This document shows positions 1-11,505 of a DNA stretch of 46,443 bases, one piece after another. The notes under the pieces were generated by a model. The model was not told the origin of the DNA. It did no database searches and saw nothing but the letters and a program-made list of their open reading frames with translations. The number at the start of each line of letters is the position of its first letter. The first letter of the stretch is position 1. The position numbers and the translations under genes are program-made. Source of the stretch: an uncultured Polaribacter sp. (GTDB lineage Bacteria; Bacteroidota; Bacteroidia; Flavobacteriales; Flavobacteriaceae); NCBI GenBank assembly GCA_913061165.1, contig CAJXTJ010000006.1, positions 1 to 46,443 on the forward strand, given 5' to 3'.

Positions 1-50
1 TACGAGATGTAGAGAGGTCTCGTGGGCTCGGAGATGTGTATAAGAGACAG
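1..50 (+). other. Nextera/Tn5 i7 adapter remnant (sequencing artefact)
   Basis: TACGAGAT-GTAGAGAG-GTCTCGTGGGCTCGGAGATGTGTATAAGAGACAG matches the Nextera i7 adapter with an 8-nt index. Confidence 0.98.
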
Positions 51-636
51 TAAATACATAGCTGCAATTGGAGGTAAAGAAAAAGTAATGGCTGTTAAAA
101 CTACGATTACTATTGCAAACGCAACTATTCAAGGAACGCCTTTGGTAATGACAATGAAAGCTGCTGCGCCTAATAAGTCTTCGCAAGAAATTTCTGTAAT
201 GGGCAACACCATGCAAAAAACTGTTTTTAATGGAACTACAGGATACGCTTCTTTAAGAGGTCAAAAGAAAGAGATGACCGCAGAAGAAATTGCGAAAGCA
301 AAAGGGAAAAGTGGTATTTTTAAAGACTTGGTATATGCTGCTGGAGAATTGTTAAGAATTGAGCCTTTAGACGGTAAAAATGCTATTGTTTTAAAATATA
401 AGGATAGCGAAGTTTATTATGACATGACTTCTGGTTTAAAAGTAAAAGAAGTAAAAACAGGAAAAGGACCCGATGGTAAAGAAGTGAAAACGCCAACAAT
501 CTATGGTGATTATAAAGAAGTAAACGGAGTTAAATTTCCGCATGCGATTGGAATTAAATCTGGTCCAATGAATTTAGATTTCGTTGTAAAAGAAATTAAA
601 GTAAATGAAGGCGTTTCTGATGCAGATTTTGAATAG
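51..636 (+). CDS. 5'-truncated CDS; outer-membrane lipoprotein-sorting-like C-terminal domain, possibly the C-terminus of an M16 peptidase-type protein
   Basis: Open from the adapter junction; 'YIAAIGGKEKV...MTMKAAAPNKSSQEISVMGNTMQKTVFNGTTGY...SEVYYDMTSGLKVKEV' resembles domains following insulinase-family peptidases in Bacteroidetes. Confidence 0.6.
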
Positions 637-2049: not shown

Positions 2050-2290
2050 TATTTCTGAAAAAAATAACATCTGTTCCGATACTTGTAAAGAAAATTGTGA
2101 AATGGCTTGTTGTAAGGGCAAAATAATACCTAAACTTAACTTACTTTATTACAATATCTTAGACTTAAATCAAAGCAAACTCTTCTTTATATTAAGATTC
2201 AAAACCTTTTTAATGTTAAATTAATGTTACCAAAACGTTTTTTTAATGTAATTTAATTACTTATATTTGAGGTATAAATAAATTAGGATT

Positions 2291-2644
2291 ATGAAGAAAG
2301 CAATAATTTTAGCATTAATTTTTGTATCAAGCTTTGGGTTTGCACAAGAAAAAGAAACTTCTTTTGAGAGAGAAGGAAATTTAGTAAAAGCTACTTATTA
2401 TAATGCAGAAGGTCAGATAAGTATTATTGGTTATTTTAAAGATAAAAAAATAACAGGTACTTGGACTAGTTATGATACTAACGGTAATAAAACTAAGATT
2501 GCCCATTATAAAGATGGCAAGAAAGTAGGTAAGTGGTTTGTATGGAATAAAAATACATTAAAAGAAATTACTTATAATAGTAACGTAATTGTTAGTGTTA
2601 ATGATTGGAAATCTGAATCTAGACTAGCTTTAAATAACGATTAA
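2291..2644 (+). CDS. MORN-repeat/YwqK-like secreted protein
   Basis: Signal peptide; repeats 'GYFKDKKITGTWTSYDTNGNKTKIAHYKDGKKVGKWFVW'; preceded by TATATTTG at 2262-2269. Confidence 0.7.
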   Translation: MKKAIILALIFVSSFGFAQEKETSFEREGNLVKATYYNAEGQISIIGYFKDKKITGTWTSYDTNGNKTKIAHYKDGKKVGKWFVWNKNTLKEITYNSNVIVSVNDWKSESRLALNND

Positions 2645-4819: not shown

Positions 4820-7630
4820 TTAGAATGTATACGTAACACTTACTGTTAACCGACTTCCTTTTTTATAAGACTGCACTGTTTGATTTGTTTCTTCGGCTGT
4901 AATTAAACTTCTAACTTTTTGGGTTTGTCTAATTTCTGGATTTGATAAATTTCTTCCTACGAATTTTATGAATAGCTGTTCTGTTAATTTTTTACTTACT
5001 ACTAAATCTAATGTTACAAACCCTTTCTCTATAATTTCATCATTGTATTCTGTAGCTCTATTTACAAAGCCCTCTGCACCTCCCAAGGAGAAAATTTTAT
5101 CTGATGAATAGTTCCCCGTTAAAGTAGCAACAAATTCTTTTTCTTTTTTATCACTAAAACTTAAAGAACCATTTGCAATAAAATCTGATGCTCCTTGTAA
5201 ACTAGATGCTGTAAGGTCTTTATATTGAAAGTTTTCAAACAAATCTTGGTTCAACCACATTTTAGTAATATTACCAGTGATGTTTAAAATACTTTCATCG
5301 TCACCATTTTTTAATAAATTTGTCTTTGCTTCTAACTCTACCCCATAAACAGTTGCTTTTTCTCCTGTATTGGCATAAAAAAAGTATCCTGAAGAGCCTC
5401 TTGTTAACGCTAAGTTAATTGGGTTGTTAATTTGTTTGTAAAATGCTGTTGCAGAAAAAAGTTGCCCCCTTTCTGGAAACATTTCATATTTTAGATCGAA
5501 ATTATAAATTTCTGATTTCTCTAAATCTGGATTCCCCTTTGTTACACGACCTGTTGGAGACACATATTCAAAAGGAGACAATTCTTTAAATTCTGGTAAA
5601 GTTTGTGTAATACTAGATGCAAAACGCAGGTATTTATTTTCTGATAACTCATACTTTAGGTTTATACTAGGATATAAGCTTTCATATGTTTTATTTAAAG
5701 TTCCAAGTCTAGCACCATTGGGTCCATTATAATTTCCAACATCCCAAATAGAATTAATTTCGTCTCTTTCAAAGCGCGCTCCTAAATTACCAGAAAACTT
5801 ATCTCGAGAAAAATCGAAATTTACAAACCCTGCTAAAATAGATAAGTCTGCTTGATACCTATCTGGCACTCCTATGGTTAAATTTAATCCGTTGTTAAAA
5901 TTAGTGTCTGTAAAAGTAGTTGACAATTCATCTATTGATGGTGCTGTAAAATCTTTTGCATCTACACCAATAAATAAAGACCTAAAAGTTCTTTCTTTAT
6001 ATCTGTAATTAAATCCGTAGTTTAAAGCATAAGGCTTGTTACCATCTGCGTCTAATGCTCCTAAAATCCATTTATTCTGCACCAAAGCATTGTATTCTGT
6101 ATCTTGAATTTTTTGAGTAGATTTTCTTTGTTGAAAATCGCCAACATGTGCATATTGAATTGTTGGAGCATGGTCTATATTTAAGATATTAATCTCATTT
6201 CTAATTCTATTTGGCTCTTCTGCCAAAACAAAATTATACCCTCCAGCCCAATTTAAAGTATTGTTTTCGTTCCATTTATGTTCCCCTAATAATTGGTTGA
6301 TAAATAATGTGGTTTGTTTAAAATTTTGATCTCTAACAAAAGCACCATCTTCCTGCGGATCTTGATCAAATACATACCCATAACCCTTTCTACCTTGTTC
6401 GTATAAATTATCAGTTCCATTATTAACAAATAAAGTATTATACTTGATTTTATTATTGGCATTTAATTTTAAACCTACATTTATATACCCTGTAGTATTT
6501 GTTCTTGAGATGTATTGTTCAACATCATTTTCGTTAGAACTTACACCTCTATCGCTATTGATTTCTCTTGTAATAGCAGGAAAAGAAGTATTTAAAACAT
6601 TCAATCGATACGAATTAAAAACGCCTTCTCTGTATTCAAAAGTTTTCGCATGAGAACCAGTAAAAAAGACCGCTATATCTTTACCAAAAATTTCAAATTT
6701 CTTTGCAGCCGAAAAAGAAATATTAAAGTTTACGGGGGTAGACAATGTTTCGGTATCCCAGCCTTGGCGCGTTACCAAATCTTGTAATGCAAATTGTTTT
6801 TGATGAAACCCTAAAGCAACATCTGTATTGGTAATGGTAGTTCTAAAATTATCCGAGAGACCTGCAACATTTGTATTTGTTCCTCCTGAAAATGTAACAG
6901 CATATCCTTTTTTAGAATATTCTTTAGAGTTTACATCTACATTACCAGAACCTTGGTCTGCATAACCACTTGTTGTATACGTTTTACTAATTCCTATATT
7001 TTTAATGATATTTGTAGAAAATAAGTTTAAATTAATATTTTTATTAGCCACATCATCAGAAGGAATTGGCAATCCATTCATTGTTGTAGATAAATACCGA
7101 TCTCCCAAACCTCTTATATAAATACTACCCGAACTTTCACTTTTTGTAACACCAGAAATTTTGGTAGTTGCATTTGCAGCATTCGAAACGCCTACTTTCG
7201 CTAATGTTTGTGCTCCAATACTTTCAATAATTACCGTTGCTTTCTTTTGCTCTAATAAAAGGGCATTTGCAGACTCCTTACCTACTGATGACTTTATTAC
7301 AATTTCATCTAAAGCCACCCCTTCTTCTGCAGACATTACTTGGTTTAAGGTTAAGGTTTCTCCAGCTTGTATTGTAAATGTTTTTTCTACTGTTTTGTAT
7401 CCTAAAAAACTAAAAGAAACAATATGTGTTCCAGCAGGCACCTTAAAAGAATAGTTCCCGTCAAAATCTGTCGTTGTTCCAATATTAGTTCCTATTATAA
7501 AGACATTTGCAAAAGGCAAAGATTCGTTATTTGCTTCTTTATCCGTTAACAAACCCATTAAAGTTCCTTTGTCTTGTGCAATTAACAATTGACTAAGCGC
7601 GATAAAAGCAATACATACTATTTTCTTCAT
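4820..7630 (-). CDS. TonB-dependent receptor with N-terminal carboxypeptidase-regulatory-like domain
   Basis: Signal peptide, 'GTTTDFDGNYSFKVPAGTHIVSFSFLGYKT', plug 'SGSIYIRGLGDRYLSTTMNGLPIPSDD', C-terminal aromatic 'SVTYTF'. Confidence 0.9.
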   Translation of the reverse strand: MKKIVCIAFIALSQLLIAQDKGTLMGLLTDKEANNESLPFANVFIIGTNIGTTTDFDGNYSFKVPAGTHIVSFSFLGYKTVEKTFTIQAGETLTLNQVMSAEEGVALDEIVIKSSVGKESANALLLEQKKATVIIESIGAQTLAKVGVSNAANATTKISGVTKSESSGSIYIRGLGDRYLSTTMNGLPIPSDDVANKNINLNLFSTNIIKNIGISKTYTTSGYADQGSGNVDVNSKEYSKKGYAVTFSGGTNTNVAGLSDNFRTTITNTDVALGFHQKQFALQDLVTRQGWDTETLSTPVNFNISFSAAKKFEIFGKDIAVFFTGSHAKTFEYREGVFNSYRLNVLNTSFPAITREINSDRGVSSNENDVEQYISRTNTTGYINVGLKLNANNKIKYNTLFVNNGTDNLYEQGRKGYGYVFDQDPQEDGAFVRDQNFKQTTLFINQLLGEHKWNENNTLNWAGGYNFVLAEEPNRIRNEINILNIDHAPTIQYAHVGDFQQRKSTQKIQDTEYNALVQNKWILGALDADGNKPYALNYGFNYRYKERTFRSLFIGVDAKDFTAPSIDELSTTFTDTNFNNGLNLTIGVPDRYQADLSILAGFVNFDFSRDKFSGNLGARFERDEINSIWDVGNYNGPNGARLGTLNKTYESLYPSINLKYELSENKYLRFASSITQTLPEFKELSPFEYVSPTGRVTKGNPDLEKSEIYNFDLKYEMFPERGQLFSATAFYKQINNPINLALTRGSSGYFFYANTGEKATVYGVELEAKTNLLKNGDDESILNITGNITKMWLNQDLFENFQYKDLTASSLQGASDFIANGSLSFSDKKEKEFVATLTGNYSSDKIFSLGGAEGFVNRATEYNDEIIEKGFVTLDLVVSKKLTEQLFIKFVGRNLSNPEIRQTQKVRSLITAEETNQTVQSYKKGSRLTVSVTYTF

Positions 7631-7742: not shown

Positions 7743-7798
7743 TTAACTTTTAATTAATTTTCATTCAACATTAAATTAAAGTTTTAGTGGCATATTTG
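7743..7798 (+). promoter_or_regulatory. Pho-box-like array and -7 element facing the orphan terminator
   Basis: TTAAC(7743), TTAAT(7754), TCAAC(7765), TTAAA(7776), TTTG(7795); 11-nt phase and 19-nt final spacing. Confidence 0.45.
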
Positions 7799-7803
7799 TG
7801 TAA

Positions 7804-7890
7804 TCTTTAAAGATAAAAAGTCATTATAATTTATTAGTTTTTGTCGACTATTTTATATGACAAACTGCCTTTAGCTAAGGCAGTTTTTTT
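7804..7890 (+). ncRNA. Candidate small RNA or leader (~85 nt)
   Basis: Promoter-like array upstream, palindrome ATCTTTAAAGAT at 7803-7814, no credible ORF, ends in a strong intrinsic terminator. Confidence 0.35.
7862..7890 (+). terminator. Intrinsic terminator inside the divergent intergenic region
   Basis: AAACTGCCTT-tagct-AAGGCAGTTT + T7. Confidence 0.8.
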
Positions 7891-7898
7891 ATGTTTTA

Positions 7899-7945
7899 GT
7901 AACCTCTAGGTAACATTACCTTAACATTATTATTAGTTCTTTGCA
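7899..7945 (+). promoter_or_regulatory. Pho-box-like array and -7 element of the porin gene
   Basis: GTAACctctag|GTAACattacc|TTAACattatt at 7899/7910/7921 then TAGTTCTTTGCA (7934-7945). Confidence 0.55.
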
Positions 7946-7964
7946 GCGACAAAAACTAATAATA

Positions 7965-9173
7965 ATGAAATTATCTCAACTACGTAATGTAATAATCTTA
8001 GGATGTATTTGTGTATTTTTAAATGCCAATGCCCAAGAAACAAACGCACCCAAATTTGGAAAAGGACTCTTTAATTTAATAGGACAAGACAGTACTTGGT
8101 CTATGAAGGTTGGCCTTCGTTTTCAATCACTTGCAACTAGTAAATGGGATGCAAATAATGGTGTATCCAATCCAGAATCTTCCATGTTAATTAGACGTTC
8201 TCGTTTAAAATTTGATGGTTTTGCATTTTCACCAAAATTAAAATACAAAGTAGAATTAGGTTTGTCTAACCGAGATCAATCTGGTGCATCTATATACACA
8301 AGTAATGCTTCTAGACAGATTTTAGATGCTGTTTTAAAATGGAATTTCTCTGGAAACTTTGTCTTATGGTTTGGGCAAACAAAACTACCAGGAAACAGAG
8401 AACGCGTTATATCATCTGCAAACCTGCAGCAAGTAGACCGTTCTTTATTAAATAGTAGATTTACAATAGACAGAGATATGGGTATACAACTAAGACACCA
8501 TTTTAATTTAACCGATACTTTTTTAGTAAAAGAAATATTTTCTATTGCCCAAGGTGAAGGAAGAAATATTACTACAGGTAATTTGGGCGGTCATCAATAC
8601 ACCACCAGAGTAGAGTTATTTCCTTTTGGTGATTTTAAAAGTAAAGGGGATTACAAAGGAAGTGATTTGAAATTTGAACCAAGCCCTAAATTATCTTTAG
8701 GTGTTGCATATGATTTTAACAATAATGCGTCTAAAACAAGAAGTAACCAAGGTTCTTACATGCTGAATGATACGGGTTTTTATTCAACAAATATTTCTAC
8801 ATTATTTGTAGACGCAATGTATAAGTACCAAGGATTTTCTTTAATGGCAGAATATGCCAATAGAACTGCAGACGATGCTTTTGCAAAGAATTCCGACGGA
8901 AGTTTAACAGGCGATGAGGTGCAAGTAGGAAATGGTTTAAATATACAAACTGGGTATTTAGTATCTAAAACCGTAGAACTTTCTGGACGATACACAAATA
9001 TATCTTTAGACAAAGAAATTACTGGAAAAGGTAGTGAAAATCAATATACTTTGGGATTATCTAAGTACATTGTAGGGCACAGTTTAAAGGTTCAAACAGA
9101 TCTAAGCTATACAGACATTGGTTTTAAAACGAATCAATTACTGTTTAGAGTACAAATAGATATTCATTTTTAA
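7965..9173 (+). CDS. Phosphate-selective porin O/P family outer-membrane protein
   Basis: Signal peptide from ATG 7965; 'RRSRLKFDGFAFSPKLKYKVELGLSNRDQSG...WFGQTKLPGNRERVISSANLQQVDRS' typical of the porin O/P family. Confidence 0.85.
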   Translation: MKLSQLRNVIILGCICVFLNANAQETNAPKFGKGLFNLIGQDSTWSMKVGLRFQSLATSKWDANNGVSNPESSMLIRRSRLKFDGFAFSPKLKYKVELGLSNRDQSGASIYTSNASRQILDAVLKWNFSGNFVLWFGQTKLPGNRERVISSANLQQVDRSLLNSRFTIDRDMGIQLRHHFNLTDTFLVKEIFSIAQGEGRNITTGNLGGHQYTTRVELFPFGDFKSKGDYKGSDLKFEPSPKLSLGVAYDFNNNASKTRSNQGSYMLNDTGFYSTNISTLFVDAMYKYQGFSLMAEYANRTADDAFAKNSDGSLTGDEVQVGNGLNIQTGYLVSKTVELSGRYTNISLDKEITGKGSENQYTLGLSKYIVGHSLKVQTDLSYTDIGFKTNQLLFRVQIDIHF

Positions 9174-9183
9174 TATACGTAAC

Positions 9184-9228
9184 ATAACATAAAGGTAACA
9201 TTCATAACTTTTTGTGTTTGTAAATTTG
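9184..9228 (+). promoter_or_regulatory. Promoter with TAAC repeats and -7 TAAATTTG upstream of the PiT gene
   Basis: ATAAC(9184), GTAAC(9195), TAAATTTG (9221-9228). Confidence 0.5.
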
Positions 9229-9252: not shown

Positions 9253-11505
9253 ATGGGAGATCCATATATTTTGATGTTAGTTGCTTTAGCTGTATTAGCT
9301 ATTGTAGATTTAGTAGTGGGAGTTAGTAATGATGCTGTAAATTTTTTAAATTCAGCAATTGGCTCAAAAGCAATATCTGTAAGAAATATTATGATTATTG
9401 CTAGCTTAGGTGTGTTTATAGGAGCAATAACATCTAGTGGTATGATGGAAGTTGCACGAAAAGGGATTTTTAACCCTAGCATGTTTATGTTCCAAGACAT
9501 CATGATTATTTTTATGGCAGTAATGATTACAGACATCCTTTTATTAGATGTCTTTAATTCATTAGGTATGCCAACATCTACCACAGTTTCTATTGTATTT
9601 GAATTGTTAGGTGCTGCCGTTTGTATTTCTCTAATAAAGATTTCTACAAATGATACACAAACTTTTTCAGATCTTTGGAACTACATAAATCATGAAACAG
9701 CAACCAAAATTATTCTCGGAATTCTACTCTCTGTAGTTGTTGCTTTTTCTGTTGGTGCTATTGTACAATTTGTTTCAAGAATTATTTATTCATTTAATTT
9801 TGATAAAAGACCAACATACATTAGTGCATTATTTGGTGGTTTTGCAATTACTGCTATTACCTACTTTATTATTATAAAAGGAATGAAAGGAACGCCTTTT
9901 TATAAAGATGTTAAGTTTTTAATTGAAGGAAATACAATATTAATAATTGCTGGTAGTTTTGTTGTTTGGGCAATTGTATCTCAAATTCTAATACAAGCAT
10001 TTAAAATTAATATCTTAAAATTAATTATTGGAATAGGAACCTTTTCTTTAGCAATGGCTTTCTCAGGAAACGATTTGGTAAACTTTGTTGGAGTGCCAAT
10101 TGCTGCTTGGAATTCTTATGAAGCTTGGAGTATTTCAGGTGTTTCTGCAGATGCGTTCTCTATGGGTGTTTTAGCTAAAAAAGTACCTTCTAATGTCTGG
10201 CTATTATTACTAGCTGGTGCAATTATGGTTGTTACTTTATGGACTTCTAGCAAAGCTAAAAATGTAATTAAAACAGGTATCGACTTGTCTAGACAAGGTG
10301 AAGGACATGAGAAATTTAAGCCAAATCCGTTATCTAGAGTTACCGTAAGATTGGCTATGACAATAAATGCTGGAATTAGATTTGTAATACCAAAACCAAC
10401 TTTGGCTTTTATAGATTCAAAATTTACGAAACCAGTTATAGCGTTACCAAAAGACAAAACATATGAATTACCTGCTTTTGATATGGTAAGAGCAGCTGTA
10501 AATTTAATTGTTGCAGGTATCTTAATATCTATTGCAACATCAATGAAATTACCATTATCTACAACTTATGTAACTTTTATGGTAGCAATGGGTACTTCTT
10601 TAGCAGACAGAGCTTGGGGTAGAGAAAGTGCAGTATATAGGGTAGCAGGTGTTTTAAACGTAATTGGTGGTTGGTTTTTAACTGCTATTACTGCGTTTTT
10701 AGCTGCAGCCTTAGTTGCATATCTTATTAGTTATGATATGGTCATGATTCCTATTTTATTAGCACTAGTTACTTTTCTAATTGGAAGAAATACGTTAATT
10801 CATAGAAGAAAAAAGAAGGAAGAACAACAACAAGTTTATATTGAGAGAGCAGAATTAATTACCATTAATGGTGTAATTGAAGAAAGTGCAGATCATATTT
10901 CTAGCGTTGCAAATAGAGTAAATAAATTATACACCAATGTGGTAGATGATTTAGCGAAACACGATTTAAATAAGTTACGCAAAACAGACAAACATGTTGG
11001 TAAGTTAAATGATGAAATTGATTCATTAAAAGATGGTGTTTTCTATTTTATCAAGTCATTAGATGAAACTTCTGTGCAAGCAAGTAGGTTCTATATTATG
11101 GTCTTAGGTTATTTACAAGACGTTGCACAATCTATTAGTTATATTTCTAGAGCTAGTTACAAGCACGTAAACAACAATCATAAAAACTTAAAGAAAGTAC
11201 AATTAAATGACCTGAAGCAAATAGATGAAGAATTATCTGCTTTATTATTAAAGGTGGCAGATGTTTTTGAAAAAAGAACTTTTGATAATTTAGGTGAAAT
11301 TTTAATTGAAAAGCAAGCGTTGTTTACAAACGTTACAACATCCATAGAAAAGCAAGTTGCTAGAATTCGAACAGATGAAACAAGTCCTAAAAACACAACA
11401 CTTTACTTTAGCTTACTACTAGAAACTAAAGATTTAATTTCTGGCTTAATGAACCTTCTAAATACCTATGAAGAATTCTATTTAAGTACAAAACAAAATG
11501 ACTAA
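9253..11505 (+). CDS. PiT-family inorganic phosphate transporter with C-terminal PhoU-like helical domain
   Basis: 'DLVVGVSNDAVNFLNSAIGSKA', 'FSGNDLVNFVGVPIA', C-terminal helical region 'IEESADHISSVANRVNKLYTNVVDDLAKHD'. Confidence 0.9.
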   Translation: MGDPYILMLVALAVLAIVDLVVGVSNDAVNFLNSAIGSKAISVRNIMIIASLGVFIGAITSSGMMEVARKGIFNPSMFMFQDIMIIFMAVMITDILLLDVFNSLGMPTSTTVSIVFELLGAAVCISLIKISTNDTQTFSDLWNYINHETATKIILGILLSVVVAFSVGAIVQFVSRIIYSFNFDKRPTYISALFGGFAITAITYFIIIKGMKGTPFYKDVKFLIEGNTILIIAGSFVVWAIVSQILIQAFKINILKLIIGIGTFSLAMAFSGNDLVNFVGVPIAAWNSYEAWSISGVSADAFSMGVLAKKVPSNVWLLLLAGAIMVVTLWTSSKAKNVIKTGIDLSRQGEGHEKFKPNPLSRVTVRLAMTINAGIRFVIPKPTLAFIDSKFTKPVIALPKDKTYELPAFDMVRAAVNLIVAGILISIATSMKLPLSTTYVTFMVAMGTSLADRAWGRESAVYRVAGVLNVIGGWFLTAITAFLAAALVAYLISYDMVMIPILLALVTFLIGRNTLIHRRKKKEEQQQVYIERAELITINGVIEESADHISSVANRVNKLYTNVVDDLAKHDLNKLRKTDKHVGKLNDEIDSLKDGVFYFIKSLDETSVQASRFYIMVLGYLQDVAQSISYISRASYKHVNNNHKNLKKVQLNDLKQIDEELSALLLKVADVFEKRTFDNLGEILIEKQALFTNVTTSIEKQVARIRTDETSPKNTTLYFSLLLETKDLISGLMNLLNTYEEFYLSTKQND

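Follow-up and report, generated by a model that had tools for sequence, protein, structure and literature searches.

The window analysed here, a stretch of 46,443 nucleotides from an uncultured Polaribacter sp., contains a divergent pair of genes: a TonB-dependent receptor (7630..4820, minus strand; PF13715, PF14905 and PF07715) and a 402-amino-acid member of the phosphate-selective porin O/P family (7965..9173, plus strand; PF07396 at 42 bits, with a cut-off of 20.9). A PiT phosphate transporter gene (9253..11505, plus strand; PF01384) follows the porin. Between the two phosphate-uptake genes of the divergent pair lies a unit composed of a repeat array, a promoter element and a terminator (7743–7891), which a preliminary description had interpreted as a candidate phosphate-regulated small RNA gene. 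The coordinates given there for the array units, the TTTG, a palindrome and the terminator were all found to be right when read from the sequence, as was the divergent arrangement of the receptor on the minus strand and the porin on the plus strand. At the start of the contig (1–50), the sequence ending in AGATGTGTATAAGAGACAG is a Nextera-type sequencing adapter; the first ORF (22..636) begins inside it, and the first residues of this ORF, MGSEMCIRDS, are an artefact of the adapter.

The array of the unit (7743..7780, plus strand) is a putative site for a PhoB-type activator and consists of four TTAAC-like units—TTAAC at 7743, TTAAT at 7754, TCAAC at 7765 and TTAAA at 7776—set in 11-nt steps. 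Nineteen nucleotides past the last unit is TTTG (7795), part of the sequence CATATTTG (7791..7798, plus strand), which is kept in relatives and is a 7/8 match to TAnnTTTG, the -7 element of Bacteroidota promoters. The porin has a promoter of its own on the 3′ side of the terminator, with an array of GTAAC, GTAAC and TTAAC at 11-nt spacing (7899..7925, plus strand; kept in 167 porin promoters) and a -7 TTTG (7940..7943, plus strand), again 19 nt past the last unit.

Arrays were scored by a scan for TTAACATT three times at 11-nt spacing, for which the maximum score is 24. The top scores in the 46-kb window, 20/24, are at 7743, 7899 and 2241 (minus strand), all of them inside the phosphate cluster, and in 2.0 Mb of a congener only two sites, counted over both strands, score 20 or more, one of them being the porin promoter. 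The units lie at -52, -41 and -29 from the TTTG in 140 related small RNA promoters and at -40, -28 and -18 in the porin promoters, and thus share the same phase; the promoters in each set were anchored at the TTTG and chosen by seed or leader. PhoB-type direct repeats with an 11-nt period are present before both promoters, an assignment made without comparison with the phylum's own precise PhoB motif. The third array (20/24; 2210–2252, minus strand) is just upstream of a gene for a 117-amino-acid MORN-like protein (2291..2644, plus strand), and a homologue of this gene is found near the small RNA at loci L191, L216, L226, L252 and L045. The PiT gene has TAACAT-type repeats (TAACATAACATAAAGGTAACATTCATAAC) of its own just upstream (9180–9215), and the porin and PiT may be under separate control.

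The predicted RNA is about 90 nt long (7802..7891, plus strand, with a start that is uncertain by a few nucleotides) and forms three hairpins; segment 7802–7892 folds at -21.5 kcal/mol, with a z score of -4.4 relative to shuffled sequences. Stem-loop 1 (7803..7814; AUCU-UUAA-AGAU, ATCTTTAAAGAT) has covariation at all three of its modelled pairs, and stem-loop 2 (7820..7861) is a long hairpin with covarying helices 3–5 and the seed discussed below at its apex. Stem-loop 3 with its T run is the intrinsic terminator (7862..7890), formed by a 10-bp stem (7862–7886) followed by T7. Since 1.6 weaker sites per 4 kb are expected by chance in the terminator scan, a consensus match alone is weak proof; compensatory changes are seen in nine of nine stem pairs.

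An RNAalifold consensus on a MAFFT alignment at first recovered only the apical stem and the terminator, owing to a misalignment of the long hairpin, and it was replaced by a model derived from single folds. On 64 sequences, 90.6% of the cells are paired and 28 of the 32 base pairs have compensatory changes; the covariation score is 0.390, compared with 0.148 (sd 0.007) after shuffling and no more than 0.082 when the structure is slid. These numbers are somewhat biased in favour of the structure, to which the alignment had been fitted, although the margin is large. The least variable element is the apical stem (UAGUU/GACUA), as expected of a segment that must match the target too, and segments of the RNA outside the seed are also strongly conserved. 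The only ATG frame in the RNA has five codons, and RNA lengths vary by indels among relatives. Rfam gives no match at the gathering threshold, and with E-values up to 10 its best sub-threshold matches are at chance level. At the level of sequence, the unit qualifies as a putative gene for a conserved, structured, non-coding RNA with its own promoter and intrinsic terminator; that it is transcribed is an inference.

A covariance model restricted to the RNA, assembled from 30 sequences with the window excluded, finds the RNA of the window at 69.2 bits, as a single strong copy in this genome. Weak opposite-strand matches (in the window 7857–7979, minus strand; 22.6 bits) were rejected as genes, being mirror matches of the leader plus terminator. 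The model matches 105 of 251 Flavobacteriaceae genomes, representing 99 of the 237 genera sampled; in an order-wide sample it matches 11 of 298 genomes, only one of which is outside the Flavobacteriaceae. A pattern of seed plus leader was found in at least 118 stretches and in 55 of 301 sampled genomes of the family, with none in the controls listed; among the 80 matches listed are the genera Algibacter, Winogradskyella, Aequorivita, Tenacibaculum, Arenibacter, Flagellimonas, Polaribacter, Lutibacter and Muriicola. This pattern presupposes the pairing, and the prevalence is therefore taken from the covariance model search. Scored per genome, 95 have both the RNA and a porin ortholog, 10 the RNA only, 33 the porin only and 113 neither (odds ratio 33), a figure that is partly due to shared ancestry; as to the 33 porin-bearing genomes without a model match, stricter filters lose weak ones. 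Two copies of the RNA are present in G200 (C1:1063402 and C1:1180669), each with a matching leader, and in G147 (C37 and C11), where the second, situated at the end of a contig, may have arisen in assembly.

A DNA search of relatives yielded 24 orthologous porin regions besides that of the window, and 23 of them have a recognisable RNA seed, terminator and porin leader. The exception, L027 (G019), has a porin that is preceded by other sequence and lacks the RNA. In 12 regions no receptor was seen upstream within the stretch retrieved, yet, L027 apart, the array, the RNA and the porin are still there, and the array therefore belongs to the RNA. Five congeners that lack a porin match (G002, G020, G024, G025 and G035) have no RNA match at an E-value of 0.001 or better.

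The target of the RNA is suggested by its seed, TTATTAGTTTTTGTCG (7831..7846, plus strand), which is a perfect reverse complement over 16 nt of CGACAAAAACTAATAA (7947–7962), just 5′ of the porin ATG at 7965, and which among relatives is either invariant or co-varies with the leader. The best duplex joins RNA positions 7810–7847 to mRNA positions 7946–7977 (plus strand)—the leader, the start codon and the first codons—at -27.3 kcal/mol, and positions 7–16 are paired in essentially all of 152 distinct seed/leader pairs of the common length. Compensatory changes recur. In L010 and L025 the seed is one T shorter and the leader one A shorter; in L225 and L239 the seed has changed from TTTTTG to TTTTAG and the leader from GACAAAAA to GACTAAAA, and a leader swap of GACAAAAACT to GACTAAAACT occurs naturally in L225. 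Five further loci (L215, L228, L236, L244 and L248) have TAAG or AAAG in place of TTAG in the seed and CTTA or CTTT in place of CTAA in the leader, and L250 combines a TACAG seed (a TTAG to ACAG change) with a CTGTA leader.

Natural RNA–leader pairs have a mean energy of -24.75 kcal/mol, compared with -22.2 (sd 0.16) when the pairs are re-dealt, a separation of about 15 SD, and none of 10,000 permutations gave an energy as low. Because related sequences share letters, the permutation does not provide a strict probability, and more weight attaches to the recurrence of compensatory changes, even without a count of independent events on a tree. For the 66 loci found by the model that have a target next to them, the longest perfect complement downstream has a median length of 13 nt, against 7.5 for shuffled sequences; in 43 of these loci it is at least 12 nt long, and in some of the others it is shortened by wobble pairs. 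Judging from sequence comparison alone, the RNA almost certainly pairs with the start of the porin messenger. That the pairing blocks translation of the porin is the most likely consequence, and repression is inferred.

Apart from the porin leader and the strand opposite the RNA gene, the genome of the window has only one perfect copy of GACAAAAACTAA, and this is inside a coding sequence. Perfect and one-mismatch copies of GACAAAAACTAA are not enriched in this genome (43 sites, compared with 79 for the reversed sequence used as control), and across 30 genomes no seed complement before an ATG recurs, other than in the porin leader and antisense to the small RNA. Because ranking by raw duplex energy is biased towards GC-rich sites, gene starts were also ranked by their longest perfect complement: among 1774 gene starts in the congener G023, the porin comes only ninth by energy but first by perfect complement (13 nt).

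At three loci, L191 (G180), L216 (G072) and L252 (G166), the small RNA is intact with an unchanged seed, but the next gene is PiT and there is no porin leader; the longest downstream complement there is at chance level (7, 9 and 7 nt), and either recent loss of the porin or the existence of further targets would account for this. Elsewhere the RNA and leader precede a different protein: another outer-membrane barrel at L226 (G106), where the next-but-one gene encodes a PstS-like protein, and a different porin-like protein of 400 amino acids, followed by PiT, at L045/L205 (Confluentibacter lentus). The control region therefore stays in place while the barrel is exchanged.

The preliminary interpretation of the unit as a small RNA gene is largely borne out. 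It was to be abandoned if the array and terminator were not conserved in relatives, and both, together with the RNA, are kept in the genus and in much of the family; the covariation analysis that it proposed as a check reveals the strong structural covariation described above. The absence of a credible reading frame holds, as does the claim that the upstream array drives no gene, given the separate promoter of the porin. Overlooked were the porin's own array and TTTG (7899–7943) and the 16-nt complementarity of 7831–7846 to 7947–7962. The target was not identified there, and its identification as the porin leader is the principal outcome of the present analysis. Regulation by phosphate is well supported by context, namely the porin array, the PiT gene and a phosphate-induced cluster in F. 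johnsoniae, without the control itself having been demonstrated.

That cluster, the PhoBR cluster of F. johnsoniae, is reported to contain OprP, a TBDT and a lipoprotein (FII) and to be Pi-induced, the lipoprotein strongly so, with no rise of OprP mRNA at low phosphate (PMC8115612). It resembles the window in its porin O/P, a TBDT with the same Pfam domains and a pectate-lyase-like lipoprotein, and differs in that OprP mRNA is not induced and that the accessible portion of the text mentions no small RNA (PMC8115612). Control of both promoters by PhoB is likely, and PhoB-dependent expression remains an inference.

We consider it probable that 7743–7891 is an array-driven gene for a small regulatory RNA that pairs with the porin leader and that, with the porin, constitutes an incoherent feed-forward loop. 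A PhoB-type activator—inferred, as is transcription from the site—would bind the 11-nt array and give rise to an RNA of about 90 nt ending at the terminator. The porin's own array and promoter lie 3′ of this terminator, and the same signal would therefore make both porin mRNA and its repressor; with phosphate as the inferred signal, both promoters would be on when phosphate is low. The U-rich seed (UUAGUUUUUGUCG), displayed atop the second hairpin, would allow the RNA to pair with the whole of the short porin leader and the start codon, so that ribosome binding would be blocked, and the pairing would probably also mark the porin mRNA for decay. Synthesis of the porin would thereby be capped or timed: porin would be made only if its mRNA outruns the RNA, or if the two promoters respond differently. 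Action in trans, likewise inferred, is favoured because the promoters are separate, the terminator is conserved and the RNA survives without the porin (L191, L216 and L252), although read-through in cis is not excluded. Weighing against this reading are the ninth place of the porin by raw duplex energy, the three loci at which the RNA persists with no porin leader, the 33 genomes that have a porin but no model match, and the OprP mRNA of F. johnsoniae, which showed no rise at low phosphate.

Such read-through is the basis of a different reading, in which transcripts from the upstream array continue into the porin and the antisense part folds onto the porin start in the same molecule, silencing it. 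The RNA is indeed on the same strand as its target and always just upstream of it, and the read-through transcript folds with the same pairing at -57.0 kcal/mol, but a strong conserved terminator stands between the two, the transcript from the porin's own conserved promoter would begin just before the target site, and the RNA persists at the three loci with no porin behind it; we regard a cis-acting leader as quite unlikely. The porin promoter and leader (7925–7967) also form an inverted repeat of 17 nt (94%) that surrounds the TTTG and the start codon, within which the start codon of a transcript reading through from upstream could be hidden. An inverted repeat in an AT-rich genome is also all that the matching segments need be if they are a DNA-level feature or part of a mobile element, and a small coding gene might be imagined. 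These we find scarcely credible, given the single strong copy in the genome, the compensatory changes both within the RNA hairpins and between RNA and leader, and, for a coding gene, the five-codon frame and the indel differences in length.

It is also conceivable that the RNA pairs with porin mRNA while its main role is another—regulating further targets, being titrated by porin mRNA as a sponge, or protecting the mRNA. The intact RNA at three loci without a porin leader and the conservation outside the seed can be read in this way, but no other complementary leader recurs in the 30 genomes, near matches are not enriched in the RNA's own genome, and activation is hardly to be expected from a duplex that covers the start codon; we consider this reading unlikely. 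Somewhat less easily set aside, though still unlikely, is the possibility that the TTAAC array serves another regulator and that the phosphate neighbourhood is incidental. There are no direct binding data, and a weight-matrix scan of G023 for more array-driven genes gave few convincing sites; against this, the same kind of array is present at the porin promoter, the neighbours include porin O/P, PiT and PstS-like genes, and the homologous F. johnsoniae cluster is reported to be Pi-induced (PMC8115612). A phosphate-responsive, trans-acting repressor of the porin remains the reading that we prefer.

Base-pairing small RNAs that repress porins are known from enterobacteria, where MicF acts on ompF and MicC on ompC, both dependent on Hfq and encoded at a distance from the gene that they silence. 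The RNA of the window is similar in being short, intrinsically terminated and antisense to the part of a porin mRNA at which ribosomes bind. It differs in immediately preceding its target gene, in the same orientation and with activator sites of one type at the two promoters, and in the apparent absence of Hfq: a search for PF17209 found none in this genome at E-values up to 1, whereas control genomes give matches. Within the same bacterial family, Rfp18 of Flavobacterium psychrophilum is a structured small RNA with experimentally supported targets, which are metalloproteases, and is described as conserved in Flavobacterium (PMC9723704); the targets are thus different, and our model rarely matches probable Flavobacterium, the two sequences not having been compared. 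Small RNA candidates of Sinorhizobium meliloti likewise rise under phosphate starvation, with no PhoB site seen upstream by the authors, in an unrelated phylum and, in the portion of that paper available, without a stated link to a phosphate porin (PMC2573895). No described equivalent of the RNA was found in the open-access literature. We file it as a new RNA family, MicF/MicC-like in its inferred action and kept apart from these by the apparent lack of Hfq and the different gene arrangement.

On balance, and with due reserve, we favour the wider reading that this is a Flavobacteriaceae-wide family of small RNAs that silences a phosphate porin without Hfq by means of a duplex spanning the entire leader and start codon, RNA and target being turned on from tandem promoters by a common phosphate-type activator, as a self-contained incoherent feed-forward module that is kept despite exchange of the barrel (L226, L045). 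Few Bacteroidota small RNAs with an established target are known, and here the target can be read from the sequence alone, given that in many genera changes in the RNA are matched by changes in the porin leader. The natural compensatory pairs point to the exact mutations for a direct test, and the covariance model is available for finding the RNA in other flavobacterial genomes. If the interpretation is true, the RNA would provide a model of how a major marine group silences mRNA without Hfq, and phosphate uptake in that group would have a built-in post-transcriptional brake.
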